Assembly: GCA_030141605.1 (NCBI GenBank)
Contig: JAQGDQ010000090.1
Location: forward strand, 598,501 to 662,500
Length of the DNA: 64,000 nucleotides
DNA from: Tubiluchus corallicola
Lineage: Eukaryota; Priapulida; Priapulimorpha; Priapulimorphida; Tubiluchidae
Direction of reading: 5' to 3'
The notes under the pieces were generated by a model that was not told the origin of the DNA, made no database searches, and saw nothing but the letters and a program-made list of their open reading frames with translations. Positions 10,484 through 63,606 of the stretch are shown here, one piece after another; positions within the stretch are counted from its first letter, which is position 1, and every line of letters starts with the position of its first letter. Both the position numbers and the translations under genes were made by a program.

Positions 10484-18095
<7,612 letters not shown>

Positions 18096-21200: not shown

Positions 21201-23196
21201 TTACAGCTTACAAAACACAGCTTAAGAAGTTAGCAGACTTTAAATACAACAATAATTGAAATTTCCAGTCGTTACGACAAAATATCAGAAGTCTAATTGC
21301 CTTTATTTCTATTTTTATTTCCTTTTTGTCATAAATGACAGGCAGTAGCAACCAGTATTCATTTGAGGATAAAGTAAGTATAACTGTGTTACAAGTAACA
21401 TGTCAATAAAAAAATCACATTGTAAAAATCTATAAAATCGCATTTGGTTAAAGCAGCGCAATCAGTACAATAATAGGCCTATACTATAATATAGTAAGTA
21501 GTAGGTCCTATCATCTCATTTATCGTCAATGGATTTTGACGTGCTAAGCTGTACTAGTTTTTGTAGTTTTATGCAATAGACTAAAATCAATATATGAATG
21601 ATAATTGGAATCTGAGATCACGCCAGTGTGCCTATGGTTTCATTGTAGTTTTGTATAGTGCACGTGTGTGCTTCATCCTACACACATAATAGTTAATGGC
21701 AAATGTGCATTACGTAAAGCGTCTAACATTGGTATTTTTCCCGTCTGTGCTTTAAAACTATTAGTAATAGTGATCTGTAAACTACAGTTCCAACTGTGCC
21801 AATCACTAATAATTTACACATTAACAAATAATGAGAATCCGTAAAAAATGCCCGGATCTATATAATCCATGTAGTCCATGATGCTAGACCAGATGTTGGT
21901 ACCACATGGAGTAGCAAATTGTTATGTTGCTTTTTTGAAAGTTACATGTCTGTATATAAAAAAATTTAAAGCTAAGCTTAGTGACGGTAATGTCCGAAGT
22001 TGGCGGGGATACGACAATCACTGGAAGTCATCGGATCAGAAAAATAACACTGTTATATTCTTTGAAACACTGGAAATGACCTCTCAAAATATTGGATGTT
22101 TTACGCTTTACTTAATTATATCATTTATGTGCCAGTATGTTAATTATGAGAGCCATTAGAGGTCAAAAGGTCCCAAAATTTGACCTTACCGAAAATCTGA
22201 CTTTTGTATGAAAACCATCGTAGGTCAGTAAATAATCTACCAATTAAAAATTTCTAGCTAAAGTAGTCCAGACAGCAATTAATAGGTGTCCAAGTTAGCT
22301 TTATGCAAATTATGTAGTTTACGCAAATTAATGATGTAACATTTCCCATATATTGAGTGGTCATTTGTAGTAATTGATGTCGAACATATTGGTCTATCGC
22401 TGTCCTTCGCTGTGACGTAAGCACGCTGAGTGCATTCAGGACATCAGCTCCCGCTGAAACCAGCGTTTCACAGAACATCATACTTTTCATTTTTCTCGGT
22501 TTGCAAAGCGAACCGTTTAGAATCCATTCTGCCCGTCTGAAAAAAATCACTTGGTAACTTACTGAAAAATGAATCCTTCGTTTACGTCTCCGCCATTGTA
22601 CTCAAGGGCCATTTCGAGTATATCAGAAGAGGACAGGATTTGGTGAACTCGTTGCAGGCTATCCGCTCATAGACTTCTTGTAGATACTGTAAGATGGAGG
22701 CAGAGACCAAAACATACGCGCATATGTGACTGACTGCACTGCACGCTGGGTGGTAGTGATGCTATGCCATTGTGAAAAAAAAACCTGTTTTGATAGAGGC
22801 AAGACAGTTTCTAACGATATTAACAAGGACTCTATTAACATCAGGGCACTAAGCTAGTCATTAATCTTGTATCTAATTATTTCAAGTTATTTTAATCGTT
22901 AATTGATCGATTTGAATATTTGTTCTTGTTGAACTATAATTTCTCTTTGTTAAGTTCTTACCCTGTAACTATTAGTCAATAAATCTAATCTAATCACATA
23001 CTTTAATTTTTGATTTTTAGTCGGCCTTCCAACTTCGGACAGTGATTACTACCATAAAAAAGGCTGACTAAAGTTTTTTCACCTGAACACCTATATATAT
23101 ATTTCAAGAAAGCAATGTTAGAATCTTCCACTTCACATGACTTTGCCACTCAACTCCGGGGTCTAGCTCATGGAATAAAAAGCTTAAGAGTGAAGC
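18220..23196. other. Intergenic stretch, no gene recognised
   Basis: It is AT-rich with many stops in all frames. It contains a tRNA-like segment at 19804-19872 (minus strand). Near 22963-23000 a sequence ending AATCTAATCTAATC resembles another retrotransposon tail. A minus-strand frame at 22254-22550 has no family resemblance that I can name. Confidence 0.5.
19804..19872 (-). repeat. tRNA-like segment (possible tRNA-derived SINE head)
   Basis: On the minus strand GGTTCAAATCC (19826 down to 19816) differs by one base from the RNA polymerase III B-box GGTTCGAATCC. A possible A-box-like GGCCGCACAGACGCAGC starts about 40 bases upstream (from 19868). I could not fold a convincing acceptor stem, so a functional tRNA is unlikely; a SINE head or pseudo-tRNA fits better. 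Confidence 0.3.
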
Positions 23197-26086
23197 CTAG
23201 ACCATGTGAATCTTCATTCGTTCTTTGATGACTGCTTCGCACACTGGACATTGCGTCAGGTTTGTAGCGCAGTCGTTGCAGGTTAGGAAATGCCCGCATG
23301 GCTCGAGGGACGTGTCTATTGGGCTCTCCACACAAATCTTGCAAAGATGTGGATATCGTGGTTCTACGTTTTGATCCATTTGTATCATTCCGACTAACGA
23401 ATCAACAAAAAAGAACATTTCTCAATATAAAGCACATAAAAAATCATAATTGAATGAGTTATTCATTAAGCTGTACATTAGACGCACGCAATACATAGTT
23501 AATAGACTTCATGGGAAACTTACCACATTCAAAATTTGCTTCTTGTGTTTCGTAGGTGAGCAGCGTTTTTATAATACTATCCGTGTCAAGAGATTTACTA
23601 GCAAGACGTGACTGTTTGAGAATAATGTTCAAAGGTGTTTCTTTATGATCATTTACACATTCTGGATCAGCTGAACATTTTAGAAGAAACTGCACCAAGG
23701 TATAACTCGGAGTGATGTATTGTGAATTTAGTTTATGAACAATGAGCACGCTTTTGTCGGGAAACAGGTGTTTGTACCATAGCAAAGGTAAATCTGACGT
23801 GTTTCTAACTGCAAGATGCAACAAAGTGTCACCAAATTCGTCTCGACAATCTCGAAAAACTAATCTTCTTAATAATCTCTGAACTTTTTTCCTTTCATCA
23901 ATTGTGTACTGTGTCTGGTTTTCCATGTATATTATTAGTGTGTATATTGTAACAGACAGGTTGAAAGAAAGTCTCTGGTATCCACTGTTTTTATCAATGT
24001 AGGACTTATCATTTAGAATTTTATAGTGTTCCACTTCCACCTCGGACACTGTCATATCAATTACGTTCATCATACAATCAAATTTAATCAAACTGTTTTG
24101 CGAAGTCATTACGTGTAAAATCGTAGTTAAAAAGGGAAGAATGTGTGAGTTTGATGCACTCAGTTTACGGTTCAAATGCATCGAGTGCAACAGAAGATTC
24201 AAACTGAGCAAGTAATGGGCTCCGTGTAGTACAACCCGTGCAGTTTTGTAAACCAGCTCCCCAAGCATAACATTCGTTTCTCCAACAATTCTCTCAATAA
24301 CCAGCAGACCTTCTATCAATAATGCCAGTCGGTGCCCTTTTATCTTTTCTAGTTCGTCTGCAGTCTGACATTCCGTTCGACCATATACAGGTATAAGCTT
24401 TCGTTTCTCCTTTGGGATGGCGCTACTGAGCTGCTCAAATCGTTCCCTCATTCCCAGCATTAAGTAGTTATAAACGTCGTTTTCGCTATCTGGTTTCTTC
24501 GAATGCGCAAAAGAAGCTCCTAGCAACTCGAGCGCTTCTATTCTTTGATGTCGCGATATATGTGGACATTTAGTTAGATAACTTACTACTTTTACCCTTC
24601 TGTTTAGGGCTGCTGTTACGATAGGTGTCTCACCACTTCTGTTTCCCAGCACACATGAGCCTCCATGTTCATGTAGTAACTTAACTATTCGTACGTATCC
24701 TTCCCTAGCAGCATAATGCATTGGGGAGCAACCTTTGCTTGATGTGTCATTAACTCTTGCACCAGCTTCAATAAGCAGGCGTGCAATGTCCTCGTAACCC
24801 TTTGTACACGCCAACATCAAGCAGCTCACGTTGTCTGGAGTGAGCATGTGCAATGCGCCATTTCTCTGTATCAGATAGTGTACAATGTCCCTATGTCCAA
24901 TGTAGCAAGCAGCTCGTAAGGCTGTGGAGCCATTTGCCGTTGGATGGTTAATGTCACAGCCAACTGTGTCTAGCAGTTTCACAATTGCATATTGACCGGA
25001 TATGGCAGCACACCAAATGGGAGATGCATCCTTTATTAACTGACCATCAACTTTAACTAAACCTACAAGTTAAACAACAAACACTGTTTATGAAAAAAGT
25101 TTTGAAGTGCACATAATACGAAAACATGTAAAAAAGCAGTTGTGTTATCTATTCTTATTACACAAACAAGAAACATCATCATCATCGTCGTCGTCGTCGT
25201 TGTCGTTACCATAATCATTGTCAACATAGCCGTCATCACCGTCGTTATCATCATCATCATCATCATCGTCGTCGTCGTCATCGTCGTCGTCGTCGTTATT
25301 ATTGCAACATTATTTCGTTTTGCAAATCAGACATGGACATATGGAACCACAGAGCAAAATAGATGAATTAGGCGGCAATAATTCATTATTCTTGCTCTTT
25401 CGCTTTGTAGGTATCTCGACGATTGTCAACGCAAAGGCTTACACAAACGTCAGTACATTAGAATGAAAAAGAAAGTACATGTACCGGAAAACAGTTTCTT
25501 CTTAACCGATAACAGTTGCTCACCTGTTGCCTGTACATCGACTTTTTCTTCTAACAGTTTTATTAGTGCTTCTTGGTCGCCTTGTAAAACTGTAAAACAT
25601 ACAACACGTGTATGATATTTCTAAGTCGATATTACTTTGCTACATTATACATCTTTCAGCACACAACGTAACTATTAAGAAAGCTAGGAAAATTGCAGCA
25701 TAGATACATAAACAATCCTAGTCGAGCAACGAGGAATACAGCTCAGTCGAGTGTCAGCAGAGGTATTGTGCGAACCAATTTTAATTGTTTAAAATGTAGG
25801 CTTCTCAACTTCATAACAGTGTTAACTCAAGCCAGCAACTGTAGCACTAACTACTAGGATACAACTTCATTGATATCAATATAAAAAATGAGTAAATCAG
25901 AAAATGCATTTTTTTTATTCTTTGCTTTCAAATATAGCACAAGTTATTACAAAATTAAAGAACTTGTTACATGGTCGCTTTTATGTAAGTTGCTGCAAAC
26001 AATTATGCAATAGACACTGAAGACAGAAGCCACAATTAATAAGAACATGGACATAGTTTCCCCCATTGCGTAGGTTTCTACCTGGG

Positions 26087-26170
<84 letters not shown>

Positions 26171-26211
26171 ACACACACACACACACACTCACACACACAC
26201 ACACACACACA

Positions 26212-26250
<39 letters not shown>

Positions 26251-26283
26251 ACACACACACACTCACACACACACACACACACA

Positions 26284-26322
<39 letters not shown>

Positions 26323-26719
26323 GTGTATATATATATATATATATATATGCACAAACAGTTGTCATTACAAAGCCTAACTGTTCTTAGGCTAAAAACTACC
26401 AACAGAGGGAAGCCATCCCCAGTTAGGAGAACCGTGACTTCAGCCCATATTAATTAATCGCCAGCAACTTTTCGCCACAGCAAGGTAGTATTGTAATGGT
26501 GATAGAAAGTGCAGTCTTCGTCTTCTTAGTATTAAACGTGACAAGTCACAGATAAGCGGCCCGAGTGAAAAAACTAGATATTTATAAGACACTATCAGTA
26601 CGCACTAAGCAGTAGTTCTGTTGATACATAATGTAAGCAGTTTTACCTGAGTCTATGAGTGGTGTTGTGTTTATCTTTTCGATAACCGTCTGTTGAATTA
26701 CTTCATGGTCTACTTTCAT
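23197..26719 (-). CDS. FEM1-like ankyrin protein with C-terminal RING finger
   Basis: Four minus-strand exons: 26719-26647, 25589-25524, 25062-23524 and 23393-23197. All are GT-AG with phase 1 junctions; 624 aa. Ankyrin repeats run from about residue 20 to 215. Next come the FEM1 hallmark EALELLGASFA and a helical middle with RTECQTADELE and EGLLVIERIVGETN, both counterparts of conserved FEM1 segments. C-terminal ankyrins (FGDTLLHLAV; HKETPLNIIL) follow. FEM1 proteins are substrate receptors of CUL2 ubiquitin ligases that bind C-terminal degrons and attach through a final VHL/BC box. Here the last exon replaces that box with a complete C3HC4 RING: Cys577, 580, 592, His594, Cys598, 601, 608, 611. 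The spacing equals that of IAP-type RINGs. The first ankyrin of vertebrate FEM1 seems shortened. FEM1 identity is firm; the RING join rests on splice sites only. Confidence 0.88.
23394..23523 (-). other. 130-base last intron of the FEM1-like gene, with in-frame stop if retained
   Basis: The donor is a strong G|GTAAGT (23523-23518) and the acceptor follows a T-rich stretch, ending GTTAG (23394). Excision joins codon GTC in frame. If retained, the frame reads on for GKFPMKSINYVLRASNVQLN and one more Glu, then stops at 23461-23459, giving a 580-residue protein without the RING. Confidence 0.75.
25172..25304. repeat. (ATC)n/(GTC)n trinucleotide microsatellite in FEM1 intron 2
   Basis: CATCATCATC and CGTCGTCGTC blocks alternate over about 130 bases. 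The long frames on both strands are repeat artefacts. Confidence 0.9.
26088..26349. repeat. (CA)n with CTCA interruptions, then (TA)n, in FEM1 intron 1
   Basis: About 230 bases of (CA)n are interrupted by single ACTCAC units at several points between 26164 and 26285. A (TA)n run follows at 26326-26349. Both strands show long open frames that are artefacts of the dinucleotide. Confidence 0.95.
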
Positions 26720-29331: not shown

Positions 29332-30341
29332 ATGAAAGATTCGAAGTCATCACGTGTGCGTTTTTCCAAGAAAAAGCCCGAATTAATGGGCGAGAAATCA
29401 AAATTTGGAAAGAAAATCTCCAGTCACGGACGACACGGCGATGAAGACGATGTAGATCCTGTTCTCGTGAAAAAGCGAAAACGAAATATCATCAAAAACT
29501 TGTTAGTTGTTAGTTTTGGGTTTCTGCTGTTGTTTACCGCATTTCAGTCGTTGCAGAACTTACAAAGCAGTTTGAATGCTGACGAAGGACTGGGTACAGC
29601 TTCGCTGAGTGTCATTTATGGAGGTCTGATAATCTCCTGTCTTTTCATACCTGCTCCTATGATTGAGTTCTTTGGTTGCAAGTGGACAATATGTATCGCA
29701 ATGTGCATGTACTCTGCCTATATGATAGCCCATTTCTATGCAGATTGGTATACACTTATACCTACAGCCTTTATTTTGGGTTTAGGTGGTGGTCCTTTAT
29801 GGTCAGCTAAATGCACCTACCTAAATGAAATTGCGATTGAATATGCGCACTTGACCCACCAAACAGCTAACGCAATTATATCGCGTTACTTTGGCATATT
29901 TTTTATATTTTTTCAGTCAAGTCAAATTTGGGGTAATCTTATATCGTCATCAATTTTCAGTCCTACTAATGATTTCAACGTTTCTGATGATCTCATATAT
30001 GAAACTTGTGGAGCAAAATTTTGTCCAGGTGATGACTTCAACAACACGAACTTAGAATCACCACCAGACAAAGAAGTATACATTTTAGCAGGAGTTTATT
30101 CATTTTGTGCACTGGCTGCGGCAGGTTGGATTGCCATATTTTTCGACCAATTACCAAAAGATATAGAAAGAAGAGCAGCAAGAGAGCACCGACGATTCGT
30201 TTTTCGTTATGACTTACTATTAGCTACTGTAAAACATTTAAAGCAGCTAATTCAGCTTGTAGTGATTCCAATAACTATTTACAGTGGCTTGGAGCAAGCG
30301 TTCATTGCAGCAGAATTCACAAGGGTAAGCAATACTTTGCC

Positions 30342-30397
<56 letters not shown>

Positions 30398-31998
30398 CAA
30401 CATCTTTGTCTTATTACCATCTCTATAGTGATCCATATTAAACTTAGTCTAAATCTTTTCAATTTCCTTGTACCTAATTTGATGTAATCCATATTTTGGC
30501 AAGCGAAATGGCAGATTATTATACTATATAGTACAGCCCTGTAATCATTTTTTACTAAGCTCTTATAATTGGTTATAGATAATGTCACTTTAGCTGCAAA
30601 AAATTTCTTGTAGCTACGTCGCAACATTGGCCGGACAACAAAGTTGACTACTAGGTTTGCTGTCTGCTATCTAAATATCGCTTGTGAGATATCGCTGGTC
30701 TCTAAATATCCTCTTGGGGTAGCAAATGTTATGTTCGCTCTTGAAAAAGCAAGTGGAAAAACGGCTCTTCTTTTACTAGACAAACACTTGAGAGGATGAT
30801 ATGGTTTCGTGTCCAAAGCCAAATTGTAATACCATCAATGTTATTCTATGCAGGACATCTATCTTTATGCTACCGCTCCCGTTTTCTCTTTTCCACTCTT
30901 AGAATATCTAAACTGCTTTTTATTACAGCTAGCTGCTACGCGTGGATAGATCTGGAGGCAACGAGAAGCAGTAAGATTTGCGTCGCGAAAAAGGTTAATT
31001 GTTAATATTGTTTAGTGCATACATTTTTCAGGCATACATCACTTGTTCCTGGGGAATTGACAAAGTTGGATATATTATGATGATATACGGAGTGACCAAT
31101 GCAGTTTGGTCTTTGTGCACTGGACAACTTGTAAAATTAGTTGGAAGAGTACCATTAGTGCTCGTGGGAGCAGCTGCACATGTAGCGGTCTTAATTGCAC
31201 TATTCTTTTGGAAACCCCATCCAGACGAAGCATCCATCTATTTTGTTCTAGTTGCTAGCTGGGCCATTGGTGATGCAACTTGGCAAATTCATTTGAATGG
31301 TAAGTCTTTATGATAAGTTCATATGCCTTAAAGTAAAAAAGTATATGAAAATATACTAGACTTAAGGAAGACAAAATCGCATACTTTCGTTATAGGGTGT
31401 GTGCTTTCATATTGTTTGTTGTTTTCATGAAGTTACACTTTTCCTCCTTTAGTTACATTATCAAAAAATCATCTTTATCAGACATTGCACCTGCTCAGCA
31501 CTTTCGCATAAATATTACATGTACATATATAGCCTTAAGAATTTGAAAGTCTCGTATAACAAAGGTATACACACGTTTTTCGACTAGCCATATCATTGCC
31601 CTGCTAGCAGTATGTGTGTGAATCTAGACACACCATATTTTGACGTATTATTACGTAATACTGCTTATTCCGTCAGAAGTAGAGCTTTAACTCCCAGGAA
31701 TGTTCTTATGAGTGGTACTGGAAATTCTGACTGCCTGTACTACTCAAAATTTCATAACATATAGTTAAACCTATTATTTGTAAATTTTATGTAAATAGTA
31801 GTTGTGTTATTGTAATGTTTGTTCTAATTGTAATATTATTCTAATTCTTATATCTTATTGTATCGTGTTGTATACTAACTGTTATTGTATTATATTATAT
31901 TTTATAGTCACTGTTGTTTTGTGTTATATTAGCAATGCTTGCAATTGCTAATATACTTCCCTTACTACTACTGCAGCTACTACTAACTACTACTACTG

Positions 31999-35394: not shown

Positions 35395-37075
35395 ATTATT
35401 ATTATTATAACTCTTTTATTAACCTCTTTTTGCAGGTATACAAGGAGTCATTTCAATCTAATACATCCAAAAGAAATACAATTATACATTATGACACAGG
35501 TAACAAAAGTGCAACTAGATCCAAAAACAAGTCACACAAAAAGACATTATGAATAATTGTAGACAATGATAAGAACAAGTTGACACACAATACTCAGATG
35601 TTGTTTGTACATATAATACAAGAAAAATAATTACACAAAATACAACATTCACGTCCAAGCTATTTAAATAATCACAACTAGAACTAGTACCAACTATGGT
35701 TCAGAAAATTTGCCCATATTTATGTTAAGCTTACTCTGCATCGTTATAATTATAACAAAATATATAAAATCATTTATCTTACTGTTTTTACACACTGTAT
35801 ATGCTCAGCTAACCCGAAGTAATAAAAACTACATTAAATTTTTGTTTATAATATTTTTCACCACTTGTGTAAATTTATCACAAACTAATGTATTTCTTTT
35901 AAAATAAATCTCTCTTAATTCCCGGTTAGGCAGAACATCGATAAGATTTTTTCTGGCTTCTTGGTCAGCTAAACTACAATTAAAGCGTAGATGGTCAGAA
36001 GTTTTGTTTCTCATATTAAACCCTTTGCATATTTTTAAGAAAGTTTTGCCGTAGCCAAATGAATTTTTACAGGGTGATTATTTATTCGACGATTTAAAGG
36101 CAATGCTTCACAAATAAGCATTTCTTGCTTAAGTAAGTCCTCATCCGTACAGCTCAACGCTTTTAATACAAGTTTACTGACTATGCAAGAGAAAACTATG
36201 TCTAGGCATTACACAAATACATTCAATATCAGGTTTCCTGGGATTGTACCCCACCCCCGCAGCAGCTTTCTTTACATCATACCATAAATCATAAAAATCA
36301 CCTAGTTTTCTGTTCATCGAGCTCGACGCATCATAAGATATACTTGGCATCACAACAGTTTGGAATAATCTAATAATGGTTGTCATTCTTAAACCTTTAT
36401 TTTTATAAATTACGCTCTTGAGTATTTTATATCCCATATAGCCCATATGGGATATATAGGCCATATGGGATTCTATAGCCCATTTCTTCCAAGCACTTTG
36501 CCTGGCTCTAGAAGTATAGCTATTAAAATTCATATTTTTATCGACATTAATTCCAAGCACTTTCGTGTTGTTAATATAATTTATCTCTTTGTTATCAAAA
36601 CGTAATTTTAACAAAGCTGGAATTTTGATCATTTTTAAAAACAATAGCTTCTGTTTTGTTTAAATTACAGTTCAACATCTGCCTCCATTTAGAACACCAG
36701 GCATGGAGTTTATCATATGACAATTGAGCCAATCCACAGCATTCGTTTCTTGTGTTTGCGTACACATAAATTGTGCCGTCATTAGCAAATTTAAGCTTCA
36801 AAACATTTCTGTTTGAGTCAATTTCACTAAACATATCTGACACATACAGAATAAACAATAGTGGTGACAGGACAGATCCCTGCGGTACACTTACGTGACA
36901 CAACAATTCTTCTGACAAATAATTTTATATTCGTATTTTAATATGCCTGTTTTTCAAAAATGAGCTAATCAGTTTCAAAAGCCTGCCTGCTACACCTGCT
37001 TGGGTCAACTTAAATTTTTAAACATTCACCCAAATGTTGACGAAGGCCTTTGTGAAGTCACGGCAATTCCGGCAC
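35395..37075 (-). mobile_element. Dead non-LTR retrotransposon (LINE) reverse transcriptase relic
   Basis: Minus-strand frames show reverse transcriptase landmarks in order. CRDFTKAF-like (near 37060) stands where LINEs have D-x-SKAFD. VPQGSVLSPLLFILYVSD follows (36890-36835), then KLKFANDGTIYVYA (near 36790) at the catalytic F/Y-x-D-D. The DD is altered to ND and the frame breaks between 36918 and 37075, so the copy is inactive. A thumb/C-terminal part with KVLGINVDKNMNFN (frame 36174-36644) overlaps in another frame, showing a frameshift. The left end at 35395-35412 is an (ATT)n tail, consistent with the 3' terminus of a minus-strand insertion. It resembles CR1/Jockey-type elements. Confidence 0.85.
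36423..36478. repeat. CCATATGGG palindrome cluster inside the LINE relic
   Basis: CCCATATAGCCCATATGGGA is followed by GGCCATATGGGA, forming nested near-perfect inverted repeats of about 10 bases. In frame it reads as repeated Met-Gly-Tyr, which is not typical of LINE proteins, so it is probably an insertion or local expansion. Confidence 0.6.
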
Positions 37076-62952: not shown

Positions 62953-63492
62953 CTATTTCCATTCCTTTTTGTCGTAGTCCCATTTTGATGAAACGCCTTG
63001 CACTATACCTTGCTGTTGGTCTATTTGTCGCTTTAGTTCCGCTTCCCTCCACTCCTTGGTGGCGGTCCTAGGCAAAGGTGAGTACACGAAATGCTTTAGA
63101 AATACGCAACCCCAGAGTCCAACGGTAATAAAGAATATCGTGCCGGCGAGAATGCTTTTCCATTCTCCATTCAAACGAGCTGCCATTTCGGCGTAGGTGC
63201 TACAGAAAGAGGAGCGATACAGAGCCTTCTTTTCATCCATGCTTAGTTTTTTCCAGTCACCTTTTTCCTTTTCTCTCAAAGCCAAGACGTCGCTGGAGTT
63301 CTCCCTAAATCTGACCGCCGGACATGGAAAATCTTCTCTGTCGATGTAACTCGGCTCACCGTTCATTCCGAAACCGACGATATCCCGGTTCCCGAGTTTC
63401 TCCCGTACGTACCCGGCTGCCGGAGCCGTCATTTGAGGCCCACGAATAATTAGCAGGCGCCGACACCCTACTTGCAACAATCTTACTGCCAT
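62953..63492 (-). CDS. COX4: Cytochrome c oxidase subunit 4, nuclear-encoded, intronless
   Basis: A single uninterrupted minus-strand frame encodes 179 aa. The ATG at 63492 (MAVRLLQVG) is chosen because it opens a basic, non-acidic mitochondrial presequence; the frame upstream to 63588 has no further ATG. The mature part shows the COX4 pattern: LREKEKGDWKKLSMDEKKAL (matrix domain, about 72-91), the single transmembrane helix (about 113-136), HFVYSPLPRT at its exit, and the C-terminus VSSKWDYDKKEWK, close to that of vertebrate COX4. It is a structural and regulatory (ATP-binding) subunit of complex IV in the inner mitochondrial membrane. No intron interrupts the coding part, unusual for animal COX4, so an old retrocopy is possible, though the frame is intact. 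Length is near the usual 169-172 aa. Confidence 0.95.
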   Translation of the reverse strand: MAVRLLQVGCRRLLIIRGPQMTAPAAGYVREKLGNRDIVGFGMNGEPSYIDREDFPCPAVRFRENSSDVLALREKEKGDWKKLSMDEKKALYRSSFCSTYAEMAARLNGEWKSILAGTIFFITVGLWGCVFLKHFVYSPLPRTATKEWREAELKRQIDQQQGIVQGVSSKWDYDKKEWK

Positions 63493-63606
63493 GTTTCCAC
63501 GGAAACCAAAATACTGTTCAAAATCGCGAAAGAAACTTGAACAGGTGCGAGAACAAGATCTCGCTGGTTTCACTGCACTTTGTTCCACAGGACAGGTCGT
63601 TCAGAA
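63493..63606. promoter_or_regulatory. Probable short bidirectional promoter of COX4
   Basis: Only 114 bases separate the COX4 start codon (minus strand) from a well-placed ATG on the plus strand. ATGGCGG is repeated at the right edge (63607 and 63616), a motif common in 5' ends of housekeeping genes (YY1-like). Placement is by inference. Confidence 0.35.

Follow-up and report, generated by a model that had tools for sequence, protein, structure and literature searches.

A predicted FEM1-type substrate receptor with an IAP-type RING in place of its VHL box in Tubiluchus corallicola

Introduction

FEM1A, FEM1B and FEM1C are substrate receptors of cullin-RING ligase 2 (CRL2) and are built from an ankyrin block, a TPR-like middle carrying EALELLGAS and a second ankyrin block. 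Here we describe a gene, called FEM1-RING below, in a 64,000-nucleotide stretch of DNA from the priapulid Tubiluchus corallicola (contig JAQGDQ010000090.1, positions 598,501 to 662,500; hereafter the window), whose predicted product has the same order of parts and ends in an IAP-type RING. What the sequence itself gives is this domain order, a VHL box that cannot be detected, a complete set of zinc ligands and a partly kept C-degron site. The explanation that we tentatively prefer is that of a fast-evolving, FEM1B-like receptor which has lost its docking end for CUL2/Elongin and instead bears an IAP-type RING that probably depends on a partner or on a particular E2 enzyme.

Other described systems share single features with this protein. 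Its C3HC4 core aligns gap-free with those of the IAP RINGs (cIAP1/BIRC2, cIAP2/BIRC3 and XIAP) and its C-terminal tail equals that of XIAP in length (chain 8w5a), whereas it has no BIR domain, its linchpin is Glu rather than Arg or Tyr, and the tail Phe is replaced by His. A C-terminal RING behind ankyrin repeats is likewise found in ankyrin-RING ligases such as MIB and XBAT, but these are not known to have a FEM1-type middle, and the plant XB3/XBAT31 RING profile matches here at an E-value of only 0.25. A cullin-docking box and a RING also serve the same role within the NEURL family, of which NEURL1 is the RING member. NEURL2 is described as a SOCS-box adapter (PMC7672578; papers are cited throughout from excerpts), with a different recognition domain and with CUL5, not CUL2. 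Cnidarian proteins with DED or TRADD-N carry FEM1-like ankyrin repeats (PMC8195603), so that reuse of the FEM1 substrate-binding repeats outside the cullin receptor is already known; the partners there are DED and TRADD-N, and the excerpts of that paper do not mention a RING. No FEM1-RING fusion is described in the excerpts of open-licence PMC literature searched, in line with an earlier sequence-only reading that knew of none.

Results

A FEM1-type receptor without a detectable docking end

In a comparison of the protein with sequences of solved structures, ranking by E-value puts an ankyrin construct (4rlv_A) on top; its score adds up nine repeat matches, none longer than about 154 residues. 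The best long single alignment is to FEM1B, with residues 18-548 pairing with 47-560 of chain 8wqa_D at 249.7 bits across introns 1 and 2, and FEM1C (8pql_H) scores 166.1 bits over 6-345. The N-terminal ankyrin block, TPR-like middle and C-terminal ankyrin repeats of the FEM1 substrate-binding architecture are all found.

Unlike FEM1B, the protein has no BC or cullin box that could be found. The final residue ahead of the RING exon, 559, pairs with position 571 of FEM1B P0121, a protein of 627 residues. Because the BC box of FEM1B begins only at 597 (597-608, with the cullin box at 617-627; PMC10943247), the last ankyrin repeat has lost about 25 residues as well, and the junction does not fall exactly at the VHL/BC box, as the sequence-only reading had placed it. 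A six-frame search of the window with a profile made from the 40 FEM1 C-termini with a recognisable motif, out of 152 homologues, revealed no VHL box, its best E-value being 0.79 and its matches lying in unrelated places. The sequence-only proposal is partly supported, namely as to a FEM1-type receptor for which no VHL box is found in the window and whose RING has complete zinc ligands. One look-alike of the VHL box, at 22453-22257 and in phase with exon 3, was rejected: its profile score was matched or beaten by 244 of 500 shuffles, and its Smith-Waterman score by 61 of 200 shuffles as well as by 42 of 136 other frames.

The RING reads C577-x2-C580-x11-C592-x-H594-x3-C598-x2-C601-x6-C608-x2-C611, with all eight C3HC4 ligands present and the spacing exactly as first read. 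The match of exon 4 to Pfam PF13920 (1.8e-11), together with its best PDB matches by phmmer, the RINGs of cIAP1, cIAP2 and XIAP (2.8e-11 to 3.4e-10), shows that this is not a chance resemblance.

The gene and its predicted exon join

The gene lies on the minus strand in four exons of 625 codons including the stop (a 624-residue protein). All three junctions have GT-AG borders and phase 1, and the introns measure 1057, 461 and 130 bases. Its features are as follows.

26647..26719, minus strand: exon 1, with the ATG at 26719; residues 1-24, of which the FEM1B alignment takes in 18-24 only
25524..25589, minus strand: exon 2, the remainder of the first aligned ankyrin repeat
23524..25062, minus strand: exon 3, residues 47-559, with the ankyrin block, the TPR-like helical middle (EALELLGASFA) and the second ankyrin block
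23394..23523, minus strand: intron 3, 130 bases, GT-AG, phase 1
23197..23393, minus strand: exon 4, residues 560-624, with the IAP-type RING and the stop codon
23239..23343, minus strand: C3HC4 zinc-ligand core, C577 to C611
23236..23238, minus strand: Glu612, at the linchpin position immediately following zinc cysteine C611; cIAP1 and cIAP2 have Arg there, XIAP has Tyr
23206..23208, minus strand: His622, at the position of the XIAP tail Phe (KIHM for KIFM)
23002..23007, minus strand: ATTAAA, a possible polyadenylation signal about 190 bases beyond the stop

The FEM1-type chain had been said to break off at a G followed by GTAAGT and to resume at a phase-matched acceptor 130 bases on, and both points stand: the exon 3 donor at 23524 reads AATGTG before the border and GTAAGT after it, and TTCGTTAG precedes the exon 4 acceptor at 23393, 130 bases past the donor and in phase 1 on both sides. 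This join is a prediction from the sequence and the weakest link of the finding, and we consider it very probably correct. Exons 1-3 run through 559 codons with no stop, and reading on through intron 3 gives a short tail ending at 23459. The start codon is less certain because only 7 exon 1 residues lie within the FEM1 alignment. AATAAA is absent from the minus strand between 23196 and 22000. Two repeat arrays lie inside the gene, a long AT/TG array at 26088-26346 in intron 1 and a GAC/GAT array, read by eye, near 25170-25297 in intron 2.

The C-degron site

The degron site was compared over 16 aligned rows, made up of the window protein and 15 of the 152 homologues, with the FEM1B letters checked on P0121. 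The Arg/Pro C-degron site of FEM1B is formed by Tyr84, Trp93, Ser122, Arg126, Phe130, Ile160, Tyr163 and Phe193, and its Psi pocket by Asp356, Trp367, Val391, Gln394, Phe501 and His502 (PMC11053023). On the carboxylate side Trp93, Ser122 and Arg126 are kept, as in FEM1B. Three changes are conservative, namely Phe130 to Tyr (likewise in P0005, P0041 and P0150), Ile160 to Leu and Phe193 to Tyr; Tyr84 is altered to Gln and Tyr163 to Thr, the former being less informative since Tyr84 varies in other FEM1 rows too. Retention of Ser122 and Arg126 is not automatic, as three coral-type rows (P0127, P0010 and P0043) have lost both. The Psi pocket differs from that of FEM1B at all six positions, which read His, Leu, Ile, Val, Leu and Lys in the order given above; the equivalents of Phe501 and His502 stand at an insertion and are unsure, and several of the other rows likewise depart from Val391, with Leu or Met.

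Further sites differ from FEM1B. The dimer residue Phe549 is Ser (the dimer-patch sites V584, I587 and L588 align with the exon 4 part, where they are not comparable, and were left out), and Ser and Lys stand in for His185 and Cys186 of the FNIP1 zinc site. In the alignment from the comparison with solved structures, Ile replaces the acidic residue that follows Phe130, which we take to be Asp126 in the numbering of FEM1C. In FEM1C this Asp126 contacts the C-terminal arginine (PMC10026218).

The proposal of the sequence-only reading that FEM1 degron recognition is kept is not borne out in that form: it fits the carboxylate side (Ser122, Arg126 and Trp93, with Tyr for Phe130) but not Tyr84, Tyr163 or the six Psi-pocket positions. 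The protein is plausibly a C-terminus binder with a different preference.

The RING and its predicted activity

Active IAP-type RINGs have an Arg at the linchpin (Tyr in XIAP) and an aromatic residue in the tail, neither of which is found here, where these positions are Glu612 and His622. The linchpin is the residue right after the last cysteine, Arg606 in cIAP1 (PMC6349121) and Tyr485 in XIAP (PMC12326332). Substitution by Glu severely disrupted E2 and E2-ubiquitin binding in RNF38 (R454E) and left XIAP weaker than wild type on SMAC (Y485E; PMC12326332), while the cIAP1 tail aromatic Phe616 works in trans on the donor ubiquitin and F616H is defective (PMC6349121). By analogy with these mutants, both catalytic aids are replaced by residues harmful in other RINGs, with the zinc ligands complete. 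Because of Glu at the linchpin and His at the tail aromatic, the RING would most likely be weak alone and dependent on a partner RING, in a heterodimer like that of MDMX with MDM2, or on a particular E2.

Under the preferred explanation, loss of the docking end for CUL2/Elongin (the VHL box and the end of the second ankyrin block) would keep the protein out of the CRL2 complex. It would bind protein C-termini via the kept Ser/Arg clamp, with changed specificity, and would deliver its own RING to the substrate, that RING working through a partner in a heterodimer or through a particular E2. As to origin, it is possible, and we hold this a shade more loosely, that a FEM1 paralogue exchanged its last exon and so gained an IAP-type RING where its CUL2/Elongin docking box had been, giving a self-contained or RING-heterodimer C-degron ligase (E3) with a new degron preference. 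If true, a cullin receptor would have become a RING-bearing protein through the swap of one terminal exon, the interchangeability of receptor and ligase modules for C-degrons would become testable, and compact degraders would have a natural template in this protein; its native Glu linchpin and His tail would form a natural test of the range over which RING activity can be tuned.

The sequence-only reading had gone further and proposed a single-chain E3. Such an autonomous enzyme would bind C-degrons and ubiquitinate their owners through its own RING and UBE2D-type E2s, with no partner. The complete zinc ligands speak for it, as do CKIC like that of XIAP, a CPxC second loop like that of cIAP1 and XIAP, the intact FEM1 receptor fold and the failure to find a VHL box, but Glu612 and His622 stand where the same residues impaired RNF38, XIAP and cIAP1, and several degron-site residues differ; we regard this form of the proposal as unlikely. 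Somewhat less likely again is a decoy, in which a catalytically dead RING would serve folding or dimer formation while the protein competes with true FEM1 for C-termini and shields substrates. The two unfavourable catalytic positions, the lost CUL2 docking and the very long branch of the protein in a tree (2.13) are in keeping with a decoy, whereas a dead module would have no need of the eight zinc ligands that are all kept, and it is doubtful, given the changes in the site, that the two would compete for the same degrons.

Several points weigh against the partner-dependent receptor that we prefer. Linchpins differ among E3s, and 19 substitutions range in effect from minor reduction to abolition (PMC12326332); given this variation, and given that XIAP itself has no Arg there, Glu612 is no proof of inactivity. 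An AlphaFold model of the RING alone was poor (pLDDT, the predicted local distance difference test, 52.5) and was not used. The predicted exon 3-4 join is drawn from phase and strand, from the distance and from homology, and the codon-usage score of exon 4 is 2.6 in its frame against 9.3 in a wrong frame, scores at least as high as that of exon 4 occurring in 16 of 972 noncoding windows and 31 of 244 stop-free ones. The same scores, the short tail on intron read-through and the 205 possible AG acceptors within 4 kb, some of which give longer frames, would fit an error of the model or decay, with the RING exon taken from another transcript or with exon 3 a decaying FEM1 copy that stands before a RING exon by chance. 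Set against such an error, which we judge improbable, are the shared strand, the matching phase, the 130-base intron and the stop-free run of exons 1-3. In the window, phmmer and motif searches found no second RING, a simple repeat aside, and a loose search for BIR gave two look-alikes, one a simple repeat, and no convincing motif. No BIR domain is among the Pfam families at E <= 1 in the 624-residue protein.

Relatives and neighbouring genes

Homologues were taken from the best 120 of 208 matches to the whole protein (from the 7997 candidates sharing most words) and from 32 matches to residues 214-624 (4700 candidates), 152 being listed in total. Among the listed matches that cover at least 75% of the query, no FEM1 protein is more than 34% identical, and among the matches listed P0009 and P0035 reach 38-39% across about half of it. 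FEM1 relatives ending in a RING, for which a search had been proposed, did not appear: no C3HC4 RING accession, PF13920 included, was recognised among the 152, by names that we take to denote RINGs and in a database of uncertain eukaryote coverage, and none came up when 53 rows, the window exon 3 and 52 of the 152, were scanned against Pfam. A search with residues 500-624 (43 candidates) returned nothing at E 0.001 and is weak because even the IAP RINGs were missed. P0074, an ankyrin protein with PF04564, presumably a U-box, matches 24% of the query. The viral contigs searched gave no match, and the GTDB contigs one weak match, in a bacterial metagenome-assembled genome.

In a 29-row tree, built from the window protein and 28 of the 152 homologues, the former sits on an end branch of 2.13 and has no supported neighbour, and orthology to FEM1B is for this reason not claimed. 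Grouped in it with Porites harrisoni FEM1 (P0127) are nine FEM1-like proteins (P0010, P0018, P0057, P0122, P0128, P0129, P0133, P0144 and P0148), of which one comes from JGI and the other eight from ENA. Some of them have a VHL box, the C-terminus of P0018 has diverged, and a coral expansion is possible.

Other open frames in the window include one of the UNC-93 family (29332-30438, plus strand; PF05978, 3.9e-17). Its start and the FEM1-RING start codon are separated by about 2.6 kb, and it runs in the opposite orientation, so that the pair resembles divergent neighbours. A cytochrome c oxidase subunit IV frame lies at 62956-63600 on the minus strand (PF02936, 2.8e-52). With its UNC-93 and COX4 exons the window has an animal-like character. 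Two frames have no Pfam match: that at 11372-12058 on the plus strand carries repeated TTTEAPKIxGYFVE-like units, and that at 36177-36659 on the minus strand looks by eye like part of the reverse-transcriptase protein of a long interspersed nuclear element (LINE).
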